A DNA stretch of 64,000 nt from Bolinopsis microptera (taxonomy: Eukaryota > Ctenophora > Tentaculata > Lobata > Bolinopsidae). Positions within the stretch are counted from its first letter, which is position 1, and each line of letters opens with the position of its first letter. The DNA is taken from NCBI RefSeq assembly GCF_026151205.1, contig NC_087078.1:15579118-15643117 (forward strand). The letters run 5' to 3'. Under the pieces are notes generated by a model. It was given only the letters and a program-made list of their open reading frames with translations, was not told where the DNA came from and did no database searches. This document shows positions 1 through 60,000 of this stretch, in pieces. Made by a program: the position numbers and the translations under genes.

Positions 1-3000
1 AACTGTACTACTACTGTACTACTACTACTAACTGTACTACTACTACTACTACTAACTGTACTACTACTGTACTACTACTACTAACTGTACTACTTCTGTA
101 CTACTGCTACTAACTGTACTACTACTACTATCTGTACTACTACTGTACTACTACTACTAACTGTACTACTACTACTAACTGTACTACTACTGTACTACTA
201 CTACTAACTGTACTATACTGTACTACTACTACTAACTGTACTACTACTGTACTACTGCTACTAACTGTACTACTACTGTACTACTGCTACTAACTGTACT
301 ACTACTGTACTACTACTACTGTACTACTAACTGTACTACTACTGCTACTAACTGTACTACTGCTACTAACTGTACTACTACTGTACTACTGCTACTAACT
401 GTACTACTACTGTACTACTGCTACTAACTGTACTACTGCTACTAACTGTACTACTACTGTACTACTACTACTAACTGTACTACTACTATACTACTACTAC
501 TAACTGTACTACTTCTGTACTACTGCTACTAACTGTACTACTTCTACTATCTGTACTACTACTGTACTGCTACTACTAACTGTACTACTACTGTACTACT
601 ACTACTAACTGTACTACTACTGTACTACTGCTACTAACTGTACTACTACTGTACTACTGCTACTAACTGTACTACTAACTGTATACTACTACTACTAACT
701 GTACTACTACTGTGCTACTGCTACTAACTGTACTACTACTACTACTAACTGTACTACTACTGTACTACTACTACTAACTGTACTACTACTGTACTACTGC
801 TACTAACTGTACTACTGCCACTAACTGTACTACTACTGTACTACTGCTCTAACTGTACTAACTACTACTAACTGTACTACTACTGTACTACTACTAACTA
901 CTACTACTGTACTACTACTACTAACTGTACTACTACTGTACTACTACTACTAACTGTACTACTACTGTACTACTGCTACTAACTGTACTACTACTGTACT
1001 ACTACTACTAACTGTACTACTACTGTCCTACTGCTATTAACTGTACTACTACTGTACTACTACTACTAACTGTACTACTACTACTAACTGTACTACTACT
1101 GTATTACTACTACTAACTGTACTACTACTGTACTAACTGTACTAACTGACTACTACTGTTACTTACTACTAAACTGTACTACTACTGTACTACTACTACT
1201 AACTGTACTACTACTGTACTACTGCTACTAACTGTACTACTACTGTACTACTACTACTAACTGTACTACTACTGTACTACTGCTACTAACTGTACTACTA
1301 CTGTACTACTGCTACTAACTGTACTACTACTGTACTACTGCTACTAACTGTACTATGCTACTAACTGTACTACTATATTGTACTATACTGTATACTATAA
1401 AAACTGTTATATATCAAACTGTACTATAATTGTAATATGAAAAATGTATATATATAAGTACTATTATAAAATGTTACTACGTCTACTATCAATGTTATAT
1501 GTACTATACTATAACGTATACTTGTATACGCTACTAACTGTATAAATTACTACTAATTACTATACTGTCTACTATATAATGTATTACATATTAACGTACT
1601 ATAGTAATTAAAAAGTACTATTGTACTACTATACTAACTGTATATACTGTAAAATGTTTAACTTTTACTAATATAAAAATGTATATGTGTACTACTATTA
1701 ACGTTTATTGTATACTGTATAATGTTTACTGTTTGATAATGTACTTATGTATATGCTAAAACTTTTAATGCTATAACTGACTATAAGTATAAAAGTACTT
1801 ATAAAAACTGTACTATATATACTAATGTATATAGTACTAAAATTAATGTACTACTACTGTATCTATATAAGTATTTACTTATATGTTAATTTACTACCTG
1901 TATATGTACTAACTGTATTCTATGTACTTTTTTATACAAAACCTGTATATAGTATTATGCTACTAATTAATGCTATAACTGTCATACTGTACTATGCTAC
2001 TAACTGAATATAGTATAGTACTAATGTATATGCATAATTTTACTATTTATATATACAAACTGTACTATATGTATATACTATAATTATTTCTGTACTACTG
2101 TATAATTTATACTAATTGTATACTATTACTGCTATATAATGTACTTATGTCTATTACTAATGTCTTAGTACTATGTAAAAACTGTATACTATTACATGTC
2201 GCCTAACTGTATATAACTTTTTACTATACTACTAACTGTATAATGTGTATGCTCAACTGTATATATACTATAAGTATTTACGTATATACTATAATGTCTA
2301 CTCTGTATATGCTATAACTGTATATGTTAATGTTATATTATACTGCTACTAACTGTACTTATATAACTGTATCTACAGTACTACTACTAACTGTACTACT
2401 ACTGTACTACTACTACTAACTGTACTACTACTGTACTACTACTACTAACTGTCTACTACTGTACTACTGCTACTAACTGTACTACTACTGTACTACTACT
2501 ACAAACTGTACTACTACTGTACTATGCTATTAACTGTACTACATACTGTACTACTACTACAAAACTGTACTACTACTACTAACTGTACTACTACTGTATT
2601 ACTACTACTAATGTACTACTACTGTACTACTGCTACTAACTGTATACTACTGTACTAATACTACTAACTGTACTACTACTGTACTACTACTATAACTGTA
2701 CTACTATGTACTACTGCTACTAACTGTACTACTACTGTACTACTACTACTAACTGTACTACTACTGTACTACTGCTACTAACTGTACTACTACTGTACTA
2801 CTGCTACTAACTGTACTACTACTGTACTACTGCTACTAACTGTACTACTGCTACTAACTGTACTACTACTACTAACTGTACTACTACTGTACTACTACTA
2901 CTAACTGTACTACTACTACTAACTGTACTACTAATTGTACTACTGCTACTAACTGTACTACTACTACTAACTGTACTACTACTACTACTAACTGTACTAC

Positions 3001-3809
3001 TACTGTACTACTACTACTAACTGTACTACTACTGTACTACTACTACTAACTGTACTACTACTGTACTACTGCTACTAACTGTACTACTACTACTACTAAC
3101 TGTACTACTACTGTACTACTACTACTAACTGTACTACTACTACTACTAATTGTACTACTACTGTATTACTACTACTAACTGTACTACTACTGTACTACTA
3201 CTACTAACTGTACTACTACTGTACTACTGCTACTAACTGTACTACTACTGTACTACTGCTACTAACTGTACTACTACTGTACTACTACTACTAACTGTAC
3301 TACTACTGTACTACTGCTACTAACTGTACTACTACTGTACTACTACTACTAACTGTACTACTACTACTAACTTTACTACTACTGTACTACTACTACTAAC
3401 TGTACTACTACTACTAACTGTACTACTACTGTACTACTGCTACTAACTGTACTACTACTGTACTACTACTACTAACTGTACTACTACTGTACTACTACTA
3501 CTAACTGTACTACTACTGTACTACTACTACTAACTGTACTACTGCTACTAACTGTACTACTACTGTACTACTGCTACTAACTGTACTACTGCTACTAACT
3601 GTACTACTAACTGTACTACTGCTACTAACTGTACTACTACTACTAACTGTACTACTACTGTACTACTGCTACTAACTGTACTACTGCTACTAACTGTACT
3701 ACTGCTACTAACTGTACTACCACTGTCTATTGCTACTACAGTACTACTACAGTACTACTTCTACTGTACTACTACTACTGTACTACTACTACAAACTGTA
3801 CTACTACAT
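1..3809. repeat. ACT-rich satellite array with decayed centre
   Basis: Long tandem array of short variant units made of AACTGTACTACTACTG-like blocks followed by ACT triplets, with a commonest unit of about 29 bp. It already runs at the left edge and stops at about 3,809, where a dispersed repeat begins. Roughly 1–1,375 and 2,375–3,790 are regular. The part between is AT-rich and degenerate but still shows AACTGTA and TACTAC words. The + strand has very little G throughout. No ORF of interest. It may be pericentromeric or an ordinary expanded satellite; the sequence does not decide. Confidence 0.95.
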
Positions 3810-22083: not shown

Positions 22084-31894
<9,811 letters not shown>

Positions 31895-41255: not shown

Positions 41256-41454
41256 GGGGTCCGGGACTCTAGGGCGTAAGACTCTACGGCGTGACACTTT
41301 AGGGCGGCGCCCTAACCCTAACCATCACCCTAACCCTAACCCTTATCCTAACCCTAACCCTAACCCTAACCCTAACCCAACCCCAAACCCTAACCCTAAC
41401 CCTAACCCTAACCCTAAGACCCTAGAGTCTTACGCCCTAGAGTCCGGACCCCGT
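41256..41454. repeat. Interstitial telomeric array with inverted linkers, copy 1
   Basis: CCCTAA repeats at about 41,310–41,415, with scattered variants (CCATCA, CCTTAT, CCCAACCCC). They are framed by linker GGGGTCCGGGACTCTAGGGC (41,256 onward) and, at the other end, its near-perfect inverse CCCTAGAGTCCGGACCCC. The linker also has CTCTAGGGCG and CTTTAGGGCG, which look like decayed telomere units. Confidence 0.95.
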
Positions 41455-41700: not shown

Positions 41701-41899
41701 GGGGTCCGGGACTCTAGGGCGTAAGACTCTACGGCGTGACACTTTAGGGCGGCGCCCTAACCCTAACCATCACCCTAACCCTAACCCTTATCCTAACCCT
41801 AACCCTAACCCTAACCCTAACCCTAACCCAACCCCAAACCCTAACCCTAACCCTAACCCTAAGACCCTAGAGTCTTACGCCCTAGAGTCCGGACCCCGT
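41701..41899. repeat. Interstitial telomeric array with inverted linkers, copy 2
   Basis: Repeat of 41,256–41,454 at a spacing of 445 bp, including the same irregular CCATCA, CCTTAT and CCCAACCCC positions. Array plus block therefore duplicated as a unit. Confidence 0.95.
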
Positions 41900-49781: not shown

Positions 49782-51084
49782 TCAGAAAGTCTGTACGTTC
49801 CTGCAGACCCCGCAGCCCAAAGCAAACTCCTCTCCGGTAGCAGGGTGATCATCTAGTCCTAACGGACAGGTCCCCTCAAGTTGGGTAGATTTAGGTCCCA
49901 CTGGACACTGAGGTAAAGACTCCTTGCTAAGACTCCGCAACCGGACAAAGTCATCGTGACACGGGGTGCAAAAGTGGGTAGTTCCGAAACAAAAGTACAC
50001 GGCCACTGAGCAGCAATACCTAGTGGGGATGTGGAATGTAAGCAGCAATGCCTAGTGCAGTGGGGATGTGAAATGTAAGCAGCAGTACCTAGTGGGGTTG
50101 TGAAATGTAAGCAGCAGTACCTAGTGGGGTTGTGAAATGTAAGCAGCAATGCCTAGTGGGGTTGTGAAATGTAAGCAGCAATGCCTAGTGCAGTGGGGAT
50201 GTGAAATGTGAGAAGCAATACCTGGATGGGACTGGGGATGTGAAATATGAACCACAATTTTCTATTGTCTTACATGTTAATAATCCCTTGTTATCTAGTC
50301 TCTTTTTGTGTAGCTAAAACAATAGCTACCAGGCAGTAACGGAGCACAATATAACCAAGCTAACCAGAGTCACAATACAGCCAATGTGGCTGAATGTGGG
50401 TATTGTTTCTCAAAGAATGGCACTTATACAGAGACAAATATGTTTTACCAAAGCTAACATATTATATATATAGGCTATAATAATAGCTTAGAAATATCGG
50501 AAACTGGAGAAGTTATTTAGAATATATATTCGCATTTTATCCACACTATATTTACATTACACGTACAACGTGATATCGTTATCAGTGCAGTGTGTACAAC
50601 ACCAACTACACCGATCAATTGCCAATCTGCGAAACATTTAATTATTATTATCACTTCGAGATGGCCAGGCCTACTCTCATGCTGTCTATATGTGATGATT
50701 AACTCTGAAAAACTAGGGACAACTGGGGAATGATCCCAGAACCTCGAGATTTCGCGTCTCTTGCTCTACCAATTGAGCTACTGACCCTGATTCTCAGAGC
50801 GAAATCACCACTCATATGGGATCTTCTGGGATCATTCCCCAGTTGTCCCTAGTTTTTCAGAGTTAATCATCACATATAGACAGCATGAGAGTAGGCCTGG
50901 CCATCTCGAAGTGATAAGAAACTGGAGAAGGTTCAAGATAAATATTGTCTGATTTATTGTACCAGTTCCAGAAGCGTGTTACTTACCGACACTTGTACTC
51001 GAGGTAGTCAGTACCATGCTTAGGACACACTTCTTGTGAGAGATTACTGCAGCCACCACAGACCAGGTCTTCTGGGTCAAAGTC
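49782..51084 (-). CDS. MYCBP2: MYCBP2 last two exons, tandem-cysteine domain
   Basis: Exons 50987–51084 and 49782–50019 encode [45 protein letters not shown] and the end [17 protein letters not shown], which is almost word for word the C-terminus of animal MYCBP2. In the human protein this domain carries the relay cysteines of the RING-Cys-relay mechanism that esterifies threonine. The cysteines appear conserved here, but I cannot number them against human without an alignment. Confidence 0.93.
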
Positions 51085-54000: not shown

Positions 54001-57000
54001 ATGGAACTAAGTAAAGCTCACCTCCACAAGGATGTCCACATTCCAAGGTTTGTTTGCAGGACACTTTAAACTTAGAGTTACATTCCTCGTTCTTACATAC
54101 GCTTCCACCCTCTGGACTCGGCTCACCTGCTTCATTACAGAACCTGGAGAGGGTTTATTAGAAAATAAACATTAACATTGGGAGCTGGAGGGGATAATAA
54201 ACATTAACATCGGGAGCTGGAGGGGATAATAAACATTAACATTGGGAGCTGGAGGGGATAATAAACATTAACATTGGGAGCTGGAGGGGATAATAAACAT
54301 TAACATTGGGAGCTGGAGGGGATAATAAACATTAACATTGGGAGCTGGAGGGGATAATAAACATTAACATTGGGAGCTGGAGGGGATAATAAACATTAAC
54401 ATTGGGAGCTGGAGGGGATAATAAACATTAACATTGAGAGCTGGAGGGGATAATAAACATTAACATTGGGAGCTGGAGGGGATAATAAACATTAACATTG
54501 GGAGCTGGATGGGATAATAAACATTAACATTGGGAGCTGGAGGGGATAATAAACATTAACATTGGGAGCTGGAGGGGATAATAAACATTAACATTGGGAG
54601 CTGGAGGGGATAATAAACATTAACATTGGGAGCTGGAGGGGACAATAGACATTTTCTCGGATGAATAACGAAAGTGTCGAGAATATTTCACCATTTCGAC
54701 ATTATCAACGAAAATTTTCGAAAGACACACATAAATTAGCATATTATACAGCTGCAAAAATGTTTGAAAATATTTGACAGATTTATTCTAATGTTTGACT
54801 TTCCATATGCAACAGGTAGCCCATTTTGTGAGATATCTTATTGATGGTTGGCTACTTTAGTGCCCCCTTTAAAGTAAATAACACCATTATCTTGCAAGTA
54901 AGTCATTTTGAGCTCAATGGAGTAGGCAGGATGCATGCAGATGAAAATAATGTGACATAAAGCAATAAGGCGTCATGTGATTATCACGTGACTACAAATA
55001 TAAGTGCTCAGATCACTTATCTTATAGTCAGATCTGTAATGTCGGTACCGGTATTTTTCTTCAAAAAACGCCATTAACTATCGATGGAGCGATTCAAAGA
55101 TCGGCCTGTACTACATCTGCAATATAACATCATTTCAATTGCGCGCACATACGTGACCAGTTGAAAATCGTGGTGGCACCAATCTCGGAACTCGTTGTAA
55201 ATTGTTGTAAAACAAATTTCATGAGACTAAATTTGTCGGCGACTAATTTTGAAAGGAGACCAAAATTTCAGTAGAGCATAAATGACAATATTATTGAGCT
55301 CACAGTGTTTATAATTAATATAATGACATCACTGTTCCGTTGTGAAACTACGAAGCACAAAACTGTACCAACGTCCTATTGCACTTGAAGGGTTAGAGCT
55401 CCTCTTGGACATTACATTTTTATTCGATCCATCCCAACATGTTCTGTTGAAACGGCTGAAGGCCAAGGATCATATCGCCATAAACTACGTCGTACCGACA
55501 GAAATGGTAAAGTCGAAAAAGGGTGAAAAAGAAACCGAACAGCTTACTGTAGAACTTAGTGATACAGAGTCACAGACTCTGGATCTGATGTTATTGAAAT
55601 TCCTGAGTAATGCATTGCAGCTTAATCTGTAATGCTCAGACGGGTGCTCATTGCCTAATTGATAGATAGCATTTTATTTTACAAATTATTTGTTTTATTT
55701 CTTTATTGCAACAAATCATTTAATCAACATGCCTAACGTTAAACTATAAAGTATGACAATATATGCGAAATCGGGAAAAAAATAGCTAAATAATGGAAAA
55801 ATCAAAAATGGAATGGAAAATAGTCTCGAAAAGTCGAAAAAATATGTGACTAAAATTGTTGTAGACTAAAAATTTGCGAAATTTGTGACTAAAATTATGG
55901 TAACCAAAATTATGGTGACCAAATTTATTGTGAACCAAATTTATTGGCCCTAAGGTACCTTGAAAACGTAAAATGTAGAGAAAATTACGTATTTATTTTT
56001 ACGCATTTTATGTAAATACGTACCGAAAATATTCATATTGATTATGTCTCAGGCCGTTCAAAGGGATTGTCTTGTAGAAAATGACAAAAAGCGTTTTTTG
56101 TTCCACAAATAAAAACCATCAAATATTTGTAAGTGGCGATAAAGACTCCTCCAAAAAGATCGCGCAATGGCGTGATTGTTGACTGCAACTAATACTGTTG
56201 GACTGGACTATTAGCGAAAGGTAAAGTTTTATAATAAGTGTTAATAGATTTCGGCTTAACTCAATTATTCACGTCATATCTGATATGCTACCAGTATAAG
56301 TACCAATAAAAAATATTTGTTTCTATCCAATTATAAAATTCTGCAACTTCATACAATTTTTATATGAAGTTGTAGGATTTTATAATTGAACAGTTGAATA
56401 GAAACAAATACTTTTTATTGGTAAATCCCTTATACTCAGATCCTAGCGAAGGAGAGGCTTTTGGTTTAGATTAAGAGTTCATATTCTCAATAATAGGACA
56501 AGATTAAAAAATACTGATGAAATTGTAAGCATTTGAAAGCATTCGAGCTACAATCCAAAGCGTAACTGACAATTAGCAGCAATCTACACAAAAAATTAAT
56601 AGTTGAATTATTAAATACTTAATTACAAGCGTTCTATAATAAAAAAATGACGACAACTTGCAGGTGCCTGACAAGCAAAACGTGATGCAACCAGGACAAA
56701 CTAAATAACTCAATATCTGGCACTGCAAAACAACTCATACCGTCCCCGTACCTGCAAATAAAGGCGTCCGACTGGGTACTGTAGGTGTTCTTAAACTCTA
56801 TAACCGCACGGCGGGTCTGGGTGTCAACCGCGGCGGTCATCCAGTACAGCTTGACACGGCACATGTTCTCATGTTTACTAATAACAACACTCGCCTCCGC
56901 TGCTTTGAATACCTGCCAGGGTAAAGTTTGGCATGTCGGGAATGTTAAAACTAAAAAGGAATGTTAAAACGATTATCACGTAATTTATGTCCACATCATT

Positions 57001-60000
57001 TTTGTTGTTATCAAGTTATCAGGGGCTATGGAACAGCGGTTCCGACGTGCTATCACTATCAGAAAAGGTACCTGGCCAAAAATAATTATATACTTTTGTT
57101 AATACATTTTTTCAGCTTTACTCCTTGACAATTGACAAAAGACATAGAGGCCTTTTGTTGGCCGTGTAGGGGCCAATAATCACCCAATATCTCGACTACT
57201 GCTAATTTTTATACCGCCTAAAAAGTCCATATTACCTGGCGCTGATGAGCCTTTGACTTGCGACTGAGATGAAGATACTTATCACACTCAGTACACAAGT
57301 ACCCGCATTTGTTACAGGAGATAATAGCTTTTGTTCGACTGTCATCGTGGTTCTCACAGTAATCGACCTTTACACTCGCGTCCTGGATATATGAGAGATG
57401 TACAGACTACAGGTTATCATGAGAACTGGAAGTTGAAGCAACTCGTCGGTAATTTTCTAATTAGTAATCTTGAAGATTAAAAGTTGTGGGTCATATAAAT
57501 TCTCGCATTATAACAGACAAGAGGTATTACATATTTGATGAAGCTCTAGAACATCCACCAGTCATAATTCTGGCACGTACTACGATAAAAATATGACAAG
57601 TCATACCCTGGTAACAGTGACTGATGACGCCAAGTTATCCTCCATGACGGACAGAGCAGCCAGTGCTAACCACAACCCCCTGTTCTGAGCTACTTTCTCC
57701 TCCGACCTACAGTCGTCAGGTATGTGAGTCAAACAGAAAACAATGTAACCCAGGCAGAGTCTAGAACATTCTTTCCATTCCTCCCCGAGGTTCCCCTGGG
57801 ACATGTCCCGGAGTAAGATCATCACTTCCAGCGCCAGGTCCGCAGCAACGGTTCCCCGGACCCAGTAGTCCGGGTGTTCTAGATTCATTGTAGCACCCTC
57901 ACCGCTCCTCTTGCCTTTGCTCTTCACTATCAGAACGATAGATTTCATGATGTACGCGAGTAGTTTATTCAACACAGTCATTTTAGGCTGACTTTGTTTA
58001 TCTCCGGCATCTTTCACGGTACTGTTTACAGGACTTGCGCCTGAGCTGAGCGGATCAGTATCCTCATCATAAGGGAAGCGTGGTATGCAAGTGTTGGTGA
58101 TAGAACATAGCTTATCGGGTGATATCTGGGATAATATCCTGCGGAGTAACAAGATGACTTGTCTCTGTATCCGTTTGGTGCCCATGTGCAGCAGTTTGAA
58201 GACGTCTTGGATCAGAGACTCGTGGATCACGAGGTTGTCACACCCTTCTGCTGAGCCGCTAAGCGCTGAAAAGATCGGGAGTTCGTATGGAAAGTTTAAG
58301 TACTTAAGTAATCGTGGTAATGGAGATTGATACATAAATTTATATACATGGTACTGAACTTGATACTGAAACTGTTATTGATAAGAATAGCCATTAGTTT
58401 TTTACCTGAGACTAAAGAAAGTAGTTCGAAACAGTAGTCGTCATTAAAAGAGTTCTTATCAGCAATTGACAAGGTCTGCTTCCGAATAGCGCTGACTACG
58501 TGCATTAACACTTTATTCTGAGTTTCTGTCAGGTGGGACTGTTCAAACAGTATCGAAACCTGAAATAATATACTCGATGACTGATGACTGATGACTGATG
58601 ACTGATGACTGATGACTGATGACTGATGACTGATGACTGATGACTGATGACTGATGACTGATCAACTATGACTGAACTTAGCATCGATAACTGCAGACAT
58701 CATGATTAAAGTTTGTAAAGTTTTGGGATAATTTTACGGCCTGGATGTGAACATTTTTAAAATATAGAAATGTTCAATGTTGTGTACTACTACTATAATT
58801 AAATTGTCTGCAGTGATCGATAAATAATGCTTTAGACGTGACGTATTGACGTTGACAGATGAAAATTTAAAGCTCCAATTTGGAAGTTCGATCTGGAATA
58901 ATGAAAAAATGGAAATACCGAGGATATCAAAAATAAAAAGAGCAATAACTGAACAAACTATAAATATACAATTGTGATTGATTGAGAAAAGAAAACGTAA
59001 AATAAAGTGTTTCAATATACCAAATGTTCTTGTAAGTCAGCGGAGGTGTGCGTTACTTCACCTTCTTCCTTGGACACGTCCTTAGTGATGTTCTTCAGAA
59101 TATCATTCGTCAAAACCCTGAAACCACGTACATGATTATTTAATGGACCTTAATAACCAAATACAGGATTAAACAGATCTTAATAATGGGTCATACAGGG
59201 CTTTCATCATGGGCTTGTAACTTTGTAATGAATGAAAAACCAATGAACCTAAAATTATAACTGTATATTGTACCATATCATGATCTTTCATCAATCATCA
59301 TATATGCTTGTGATGTATGAAAAAGCAATGATCCTAAAATTATAACTGCACAATATCAATGTGTGGGGATTGGTGAGGTGATTGAAGAGAATAACCCACC
59401 TGAACACTTGAAGAGCGAACTGCTGACAAGAAGGAATAGCGCTGGTAGGGGCCACTTCCTCCATTCCACCGAACACCACTAATTGTCTCACTCTCACGTG
59501 ATCTATCTTAGCTGTGAATTCCAACTGAGTGGGGAAATTAGCAATGAGTACTATTTTATAGTTCTGAGTAAATAAATATCATAGTTAAATTTATGAAGGA
59601 GTAAGTTTTCAGTGGATGCGAATTTGTATATTCATTTATTGCTTGATTAATTTGTTTTTGTGTTTAATTTATGATTATTTGTATCTGAGATTCTGTGATT
59701 AAATTTATTTTGTTGGTTGTAATGTTGTGATATTGCATAATTTATTGTAAATATAATATATGTTTCAGAATTATGTAATGTAACGTGATGGAAATATTTT
59801 AAACGGGCATATCCTGTCCAAACCCAGGATGCACTACATGAAGAATTCGTTGTAACTTTGTTTGAAAAGCATTAATAGTTCTTAGGAAATATCACAACTG
59901 TGAATAACTATCACACCACAGACCACGTCTTGAGGATTTCGTTAGCAGTTCTAAAGAATTGCAGAAGCTAGCTGATGTTTTGTCACCATCAGCTCAATCT

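Follow-up and report, generated by a model that had tools for sequence, protein, structure and literature searches.

A 32-bp minisatellite with acceptor-like units upstream of a MYCBP2 exon, and a junction-spanning array in the same gene, in the ctenophore Bolinopsis microptera

The 64-kb window analysed here (the whole stretch of 64,000 nucleotides) is crossed in its right part by the MYCBP2 gene, which lies on the minus strand. Nine joined exons, from 56912 to 49782, give a single open frame to a stop codon, and the last 248 residues of this spliced frame match MYCBP2 in the PDB (5o6c_A, E 2.8e-107). The spliced frame places an exon at 56752–56912, a predicted phase 2 intron of 2608 nt at 54144–56751 and, downstream of it, a cysteine-rich exon of 122 bp with a phase 2 start at 54022–54143, the position given in the initial annotation; the final coding exon, which is also covered by the PDB match, occupies 49782–50019, with its acceptor AG at 50021–50020. 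The 122-bp exon falls before, and outside, the stretch matched by 5o6c_A, so that it is assigned to the gene on the strength of the spliced frame, which is open and compatible in phase. Its single Pfam match was to zf-tcix, at 13.7 bits and below the cut-off of 31.2, and zinc binding by this exon is plausible, judging from its cysteines. A tRNA-Ser(CGA) gene lies at 50714–50788 within the last MYCBP2 intron, on the same strand as MYCBP2.

The intron at 54144–56751 carries a tandem array, here called array 1, which TRF places at 54164–54653 (minus strand), with 15.3 copies at a period of 32 bp, 98% matches and the gene-sense unit AATGTTTATTATCCCCTCCAGCTCCCAATGTT. The head-to-tail arrangement and the unit length, inside the range of about 10–100 bp, make it a minisatellite, in line with the approximately 15 near-identical 32-bp units described earlier; the edges given at that time (54144–54648) were off by 5 to 20 bp, and the array is separated from its exon by 20 bp rather than 16 bp. 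The sequence AATGTTTATTATCCCCTCCAG was matched 15 times (up to three mismatches; 13 exact), every time inside array 1, whereas 100 shuffled sequences gave 0.00 matches on average. Of the 15 units, 11 share one sequence, and the remaining four hold five substitutions, two of which sit in the unit most distant from the exon. With a search that skips very common words, a two-unit query matched a single locus (7 matches) in the whole genome assembly, and within the 581 bp upstream of the array only the far 43-bp end (about 55198–55240) was matched elsewhere, accounting for 39 of the 40 scored matches of this flank (40 of 111 candidates were scored). Since in this search the unit was found at one locus and the matches of the flank, among the candidates scored, were confined to its far 43 bp, array 1 does not look repeat-borne, and carriage by a repeat element was rejected.

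The initial annotation had proposed a ladder of decoy 3′ splice sites, and each unit does contain an acceptor-like AG (CCAG) together with a branch-site candidate of the YNYTRAY type. The 15 decoy AGs have their G at 54185 + 32k (k from 0 to 14), spanning 54185–54634 on the minus strand. Scored with a matrix built from predicted, not observed, exons of the B. microptera genome, the consensus decoy reaches 6.8 bits, which is inside the range of the 121 predicted acceptors and below their median (29th percentile), and two decoy variants score lower, at 5.7 (first unit) and 3.9 bits. The true acceptor of the exon at 54143–54022, with its AG at 54145–54144, scores 11.4 bits (93rd percentile among the same 121), slightly flattered by its presence in the training set of the matrix. 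It lies in the 20 nt of non-array sequence TTCTAATAAACCCTCTCCAG (54144–54163, minus strand), which also holds a CTAAT branch-site candidate with its A at −15. The suggestion that the proximal AG wins agrees with its far better score, and this is probably the site preferred in the cell. The units read CCAG|CTCC, so that the AG is no donor and the array lacks dual-specific AG|GT sites.

As judged by eye, the branch-site-like motif in the units is TGTTAAT, giving TTAAT where the true site has CTAAT, and a second such candidate precedes the true acceptor at 54171–54177 (minus strand; A at −29), within the terminal partial unit of the array. Upstream of 146 predicted acceptors, CTAAY is approximately three times commoner at 11–20 nt (12, compared with 2–7 per bin further up), and in a wider window it is found at 13 of 146 acceptors against 3–9. 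TTAAY, the motif of the array 1 units, is also somewhat raised at 11–20 nt (17, compared with 5–14 further up), less than CTAAY. No unusual RNA fold was found in 54120–54320 (z −0.61). A GTTTATT/AATAAAC hairpin covers the CTAAT candidate, and similar 7-bp hairpins occur at 7 of 121 intron ends, the array-1 intron being counted, and in 46 of 1355 intron windows; RNA structure hiding the decoys was rejected on these grounds.

Together, these observations suggest that array 1 is probably a recent minisatellite that the intron tolerates, its weak decoys being outcompeted by the stronger proximal acceptor. A 32-nt block holding a weak chance acceptor (CTCCAG) and TGTTAAT near the 3′ end of this MYCBP2 intron may have been duplicated repeatedly, growing locally into the present array, which would persist owing to a spliceosomal preference for the last AG. 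This last AG would be favoured by its own CTAAT candidate outside the array, by its higher score (CAG before G) and by the exon alongside; the decoys score lower, and splicing to any of them would bring in a stop almost immediately. Tandem arrays are, moreover, common in the introns of this genome: in a sample of 121 predicted introns from 312 kb, 27 introns contain at least one array, with 45 arrays in total. Several points count against this account, among them the raised TTAAY noted above and the acceptor scores at array 2 given below. No more than 99 among the 3698 AGs in introns score as high as the consensus decoy (82 among 3591 when the array-1 intron is left out), and this score falls in the range of real acceptors, which makes leakage to the decoys likely. 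The 15 near-identical units could also reflect maintenance.

On translation, splicing to any of the 15 decoy AGs would run into a stop four codons past the junction, and this is the same stop irrespective of length modulo 3, because the unit is entered in one phase each time. Such uniformity, together with decoys that are plausible acceptors by score, would fit a reading in which copy number tunes the share of MYCBP2 mRNA diverted to the decoys and hence to nonsense-mediated decay. A 25-bp VNTR of human ABCA7, in the passages cited, shows more exon skipping in its longer forms, whereas the use of the VNTR-unit donor and of a cryptic acceptor was described there as unchanged with length (PMC5954066). 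Given also that the decoys score below the median, tuning of this kind appears very unlikely in MYCBP2.

Another account concerns the origin of the unit, which the initial annotation had regarded as a copy of the acceptor. On this account, duplication began with the genuine 3′ splice site, and what now serves as the acceptor would be the last unit of the array, in which 9 nt (TTCTAATAA) were inserted ahead of ACCCTCTCCAG. One half of the earlier argument is void, as the AATGTTTATT beside the acceptor is array 1's own terminal partial unit and not independent evidence. The AG-anchored half stands to the extent that ATCCCCTCCAG and ACCCTCTCCAG match at 9 of 11 bases, an agreement equalled in 2 of 120 other predicted acceptors. 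In the comparison with shuffles named at that time, the unit and the 20-nt gap attain a local alignment score of 8.5, which is reached in 4.7% of 1000 shuffles and by 6 of 119 other acceptors. The start of the exon matches the unit at 3 positions over 11, and pyrimidines and a CAG are to be expected in any acceptor. Among the 45 intronic arrays, the unit of array 1 has the top sense-strand acceptor score and is alone among the sense units in exceeding the 25th percentile of predicted acceptors; in the antisense control, two of 45 do so, and one of these (7.0 bits) scores higher than the array 1 unit. Plain duplication of a splice junction does exist in the same gene, in the array described below, although the units of the two arrays are unlike. 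The sequence therefore lends weak support to derivation of the unit by copying, and an acceptor-derived array 1 is a possibility that we regard as doubtful, local growth from a chance block being preferred.

The second array (array 2; 50009–50250, minus strand) comprises seven copies of 32 bp, two of them 37 bp, each holding the acceptor together with the 11 nt that open the last MYCBP2 exon. The exon-adjacent copy reads CCACTAG|GTATTGCTGCT, and each of the six upstream copies differs from the last exon at one of these 11 nt (10/11 identical). The last exon begins RYCCS, which is identical in 5o6c_A, and this identity makes the exon the likely source of the array. Array 2 repeats a genuine splice junction, unlike array 1: its seven copies span the intron–exon boundary in the manner of the repeats known as mirages, while array 1 stops 20 bp before its exon and is no mirage in that sense. 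The true acceptor at array 2 scores merely 4.6 bits (10th percentile), whereas the most distal copy, at 50222, has an acceptor of 8.1 bits (49th percentile) and a donor of 8.2 bits (75th percentile of donors), so that score on its own is insufficient to decide which site is used; in translation, splicing to the 50222 copy would reach a stop. AG|GT is present in four of the seven copies, at 50222, 50121, 50089 and 50020. A dispersed origin of array 2 was rejected, its one genome match being array 2 itself, as was an origin in common with array 1: both arrays have a period of 32 bp, but their units agree at 16 of 32 positions (P 0.18 against shuffles).

Several arrays close to exons raise the question of whether tandem arrays in this genome arise preferentially at intron 3′ ends. 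The sample of 121 introns was obtained with a custom exon predictor, trained on 14 MYCBP2 exons and four long ORFs and then self-trained; phase-compatible neighbours were required and predicted exons with more than 20% array overlap were removed, and the last MYCBP2 exon and array 2 are absent from the set. Among arrays of at least four copies (score of at least 60), three of 18 lie within 25 bp of an acceptor (0.77 expected, P 0.03), namely array 1, array 3 (below) and an array at L032, and two of 18 within 25 bp of a donor (P 0.18). Within 60 bp the counts are again three (P 0.27) and two (P 0.59) of 18, against 1.85 expected. For wholly intronic arrays within 25 bp, donors (5 of 45, P 0.02) are as well represented as acceptors (4 of 45, P 0.08; 1.67 expected on each side), and in a looser set, within 60 bp of an exon, the two sides are balanced at 6 of 46 each. 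An earlier unchained count was likewise near-equal, with 15 arrays on the acceptor side and 14 on the donor side of 194 predicted exons, some of these being artefacts inside arrays, and the acceptor scores of array units show no sense/antisense bias (18 against 17). The P values come from trials in which both the array class (four) and the distance were varied, and donor counts are comparable; a general acceptor-side enrichment was not established, and arrays may lie nearer to exons than expected at both ends of the intron.

Individual cases beyond array 1 that would fit such a tendency are array 2, array 3 and two further loci of the sample. Array 3 (58576–58675, minus strand) consists of 14.3 copies of AGTCATC in gene sense, with 16 bp between it and the acceptor (58560) of the downstream exon at 58559–58406. 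Its repeats bring in an AG at 7-nt intervals ahead of this acceptor, leaving scant AG-free room for a branch site. Array 3 was considered as a series of acceptor copies and rejected, its AGs scoring 2.5 bits or less. At L032:272–531, next to a myosin-head gene, 21.7 copies of TACTAATTAACT (gene sense, branch-site-like) end 17 bp short of a predicted acceptor, and a further array at L009:9810 (window coordinate 83810) is found just upstream of a predicted acceptor. Set against the balanced counts, these cases leave a genome-wide process of array growth at intron 3′ ends unlikely. The broadest combination, in which arrays would repeatedly grow from branch-site/acceptor blocks, the array 1 ladder would vary in length with its copy number setting the amount of productive MYCBP2 mRNA, and the AG|GT sites of array 2 might permit recursive splicing, is in our view highly improbable.

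Other repeats were observed in the window and the sample. Related minisatellites with 16–17-bp units of the TACTATTTACCCCCTT kind occur at 31543–31720, L019:1466–1515 and L017:3673–3733, and at least two of them have alike flanks, as if borne by a dispersed element. Interstitial telomere-like CCCTAA arrays are located at 41310–41417 and 41755–41862, inside a 445-bp duplication; exact TTAGGG x6 has 1686 and 1561 occurrences in the genome (overlapping). A large array of the ACTACTGT type occupies positions 1–3807 and extends approximately 4.8 kb to the left of the window, and at 25681–28586 ORFs that look reverse-transcriptase-like by eye precede a homopolymer stretch of about 148 C.

The two MYCBP2 arrays, one repeating a real junction and the other a decoy acceptor, form a natural experiment on spliceosomal choice among many near-identical acceptors. 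They would also show minisatellites at exon boundaries outside lancelets, where such arrays were named. If copy number alters splicing, a large ubiquitin ligase gene would be under length-variable control; if it is without effect, array 1 would be a tidy example of tolerated repeat growth. In the open-licence literature searched, the connection of MYCBP2 with minisatellites turned up only an epilepsy variant in another gene.

Repeats carrying splice sites are already known, as boundary arrays in lancelets and as donor-side arrays in human genes. Lancelet mirages, as described in the sections cited, are tandem units with splice-site sequence at an intron end, reported for Adh3, with units of 10–72 bp, and for the globin genes BflGb6 and BflGb9 (PMC3902484). 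Array 2 resembles them in spanning the junction, as in BflGb6, and fits the published description in the part cited (PMC3087553), whereas array 1 shares with them the splice-site-bearing tandem units at an intron end and is without exon sequence. In human genes, the 25-bp VNTR in intron 18 of ABCA7 includes the donor, and a cryptic donor one unit further in is used, with one unit retained, according to the same passages (PMC5954066); both this VNTR and array 1 are intronic, but the former touches the donor, while the latter is found towards the acceptor and leaves 20 bp free before the exon. A minisatellite in human IFI6 (6-16) is reported to give rise to multiple splice donors (Turri 1995, cited in PMC4526556), and the notation of the 31-bp VNTR of human CBS, c.1444_1467+7, takes in the end of the exon and 7 bases of the intron (PMC2630376). 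As far as these excerpts describe them, IFI6 and CBS are like the MYCBP2 arrays in having short units at an exon end, and differ in being on the donor side and partly exonic. In the CBS repeat, the donor recurs in each unit. Dual-specific AG|GT splice sites within tandem repeats are described, in the text cited, for UBC (PMC10809524). On that description, array 1 differs from the UBC repeats, its units having AG|CT, while array 2 is like them in the AG|GT of four of its seven copies and unlike them in being mostly intronic.
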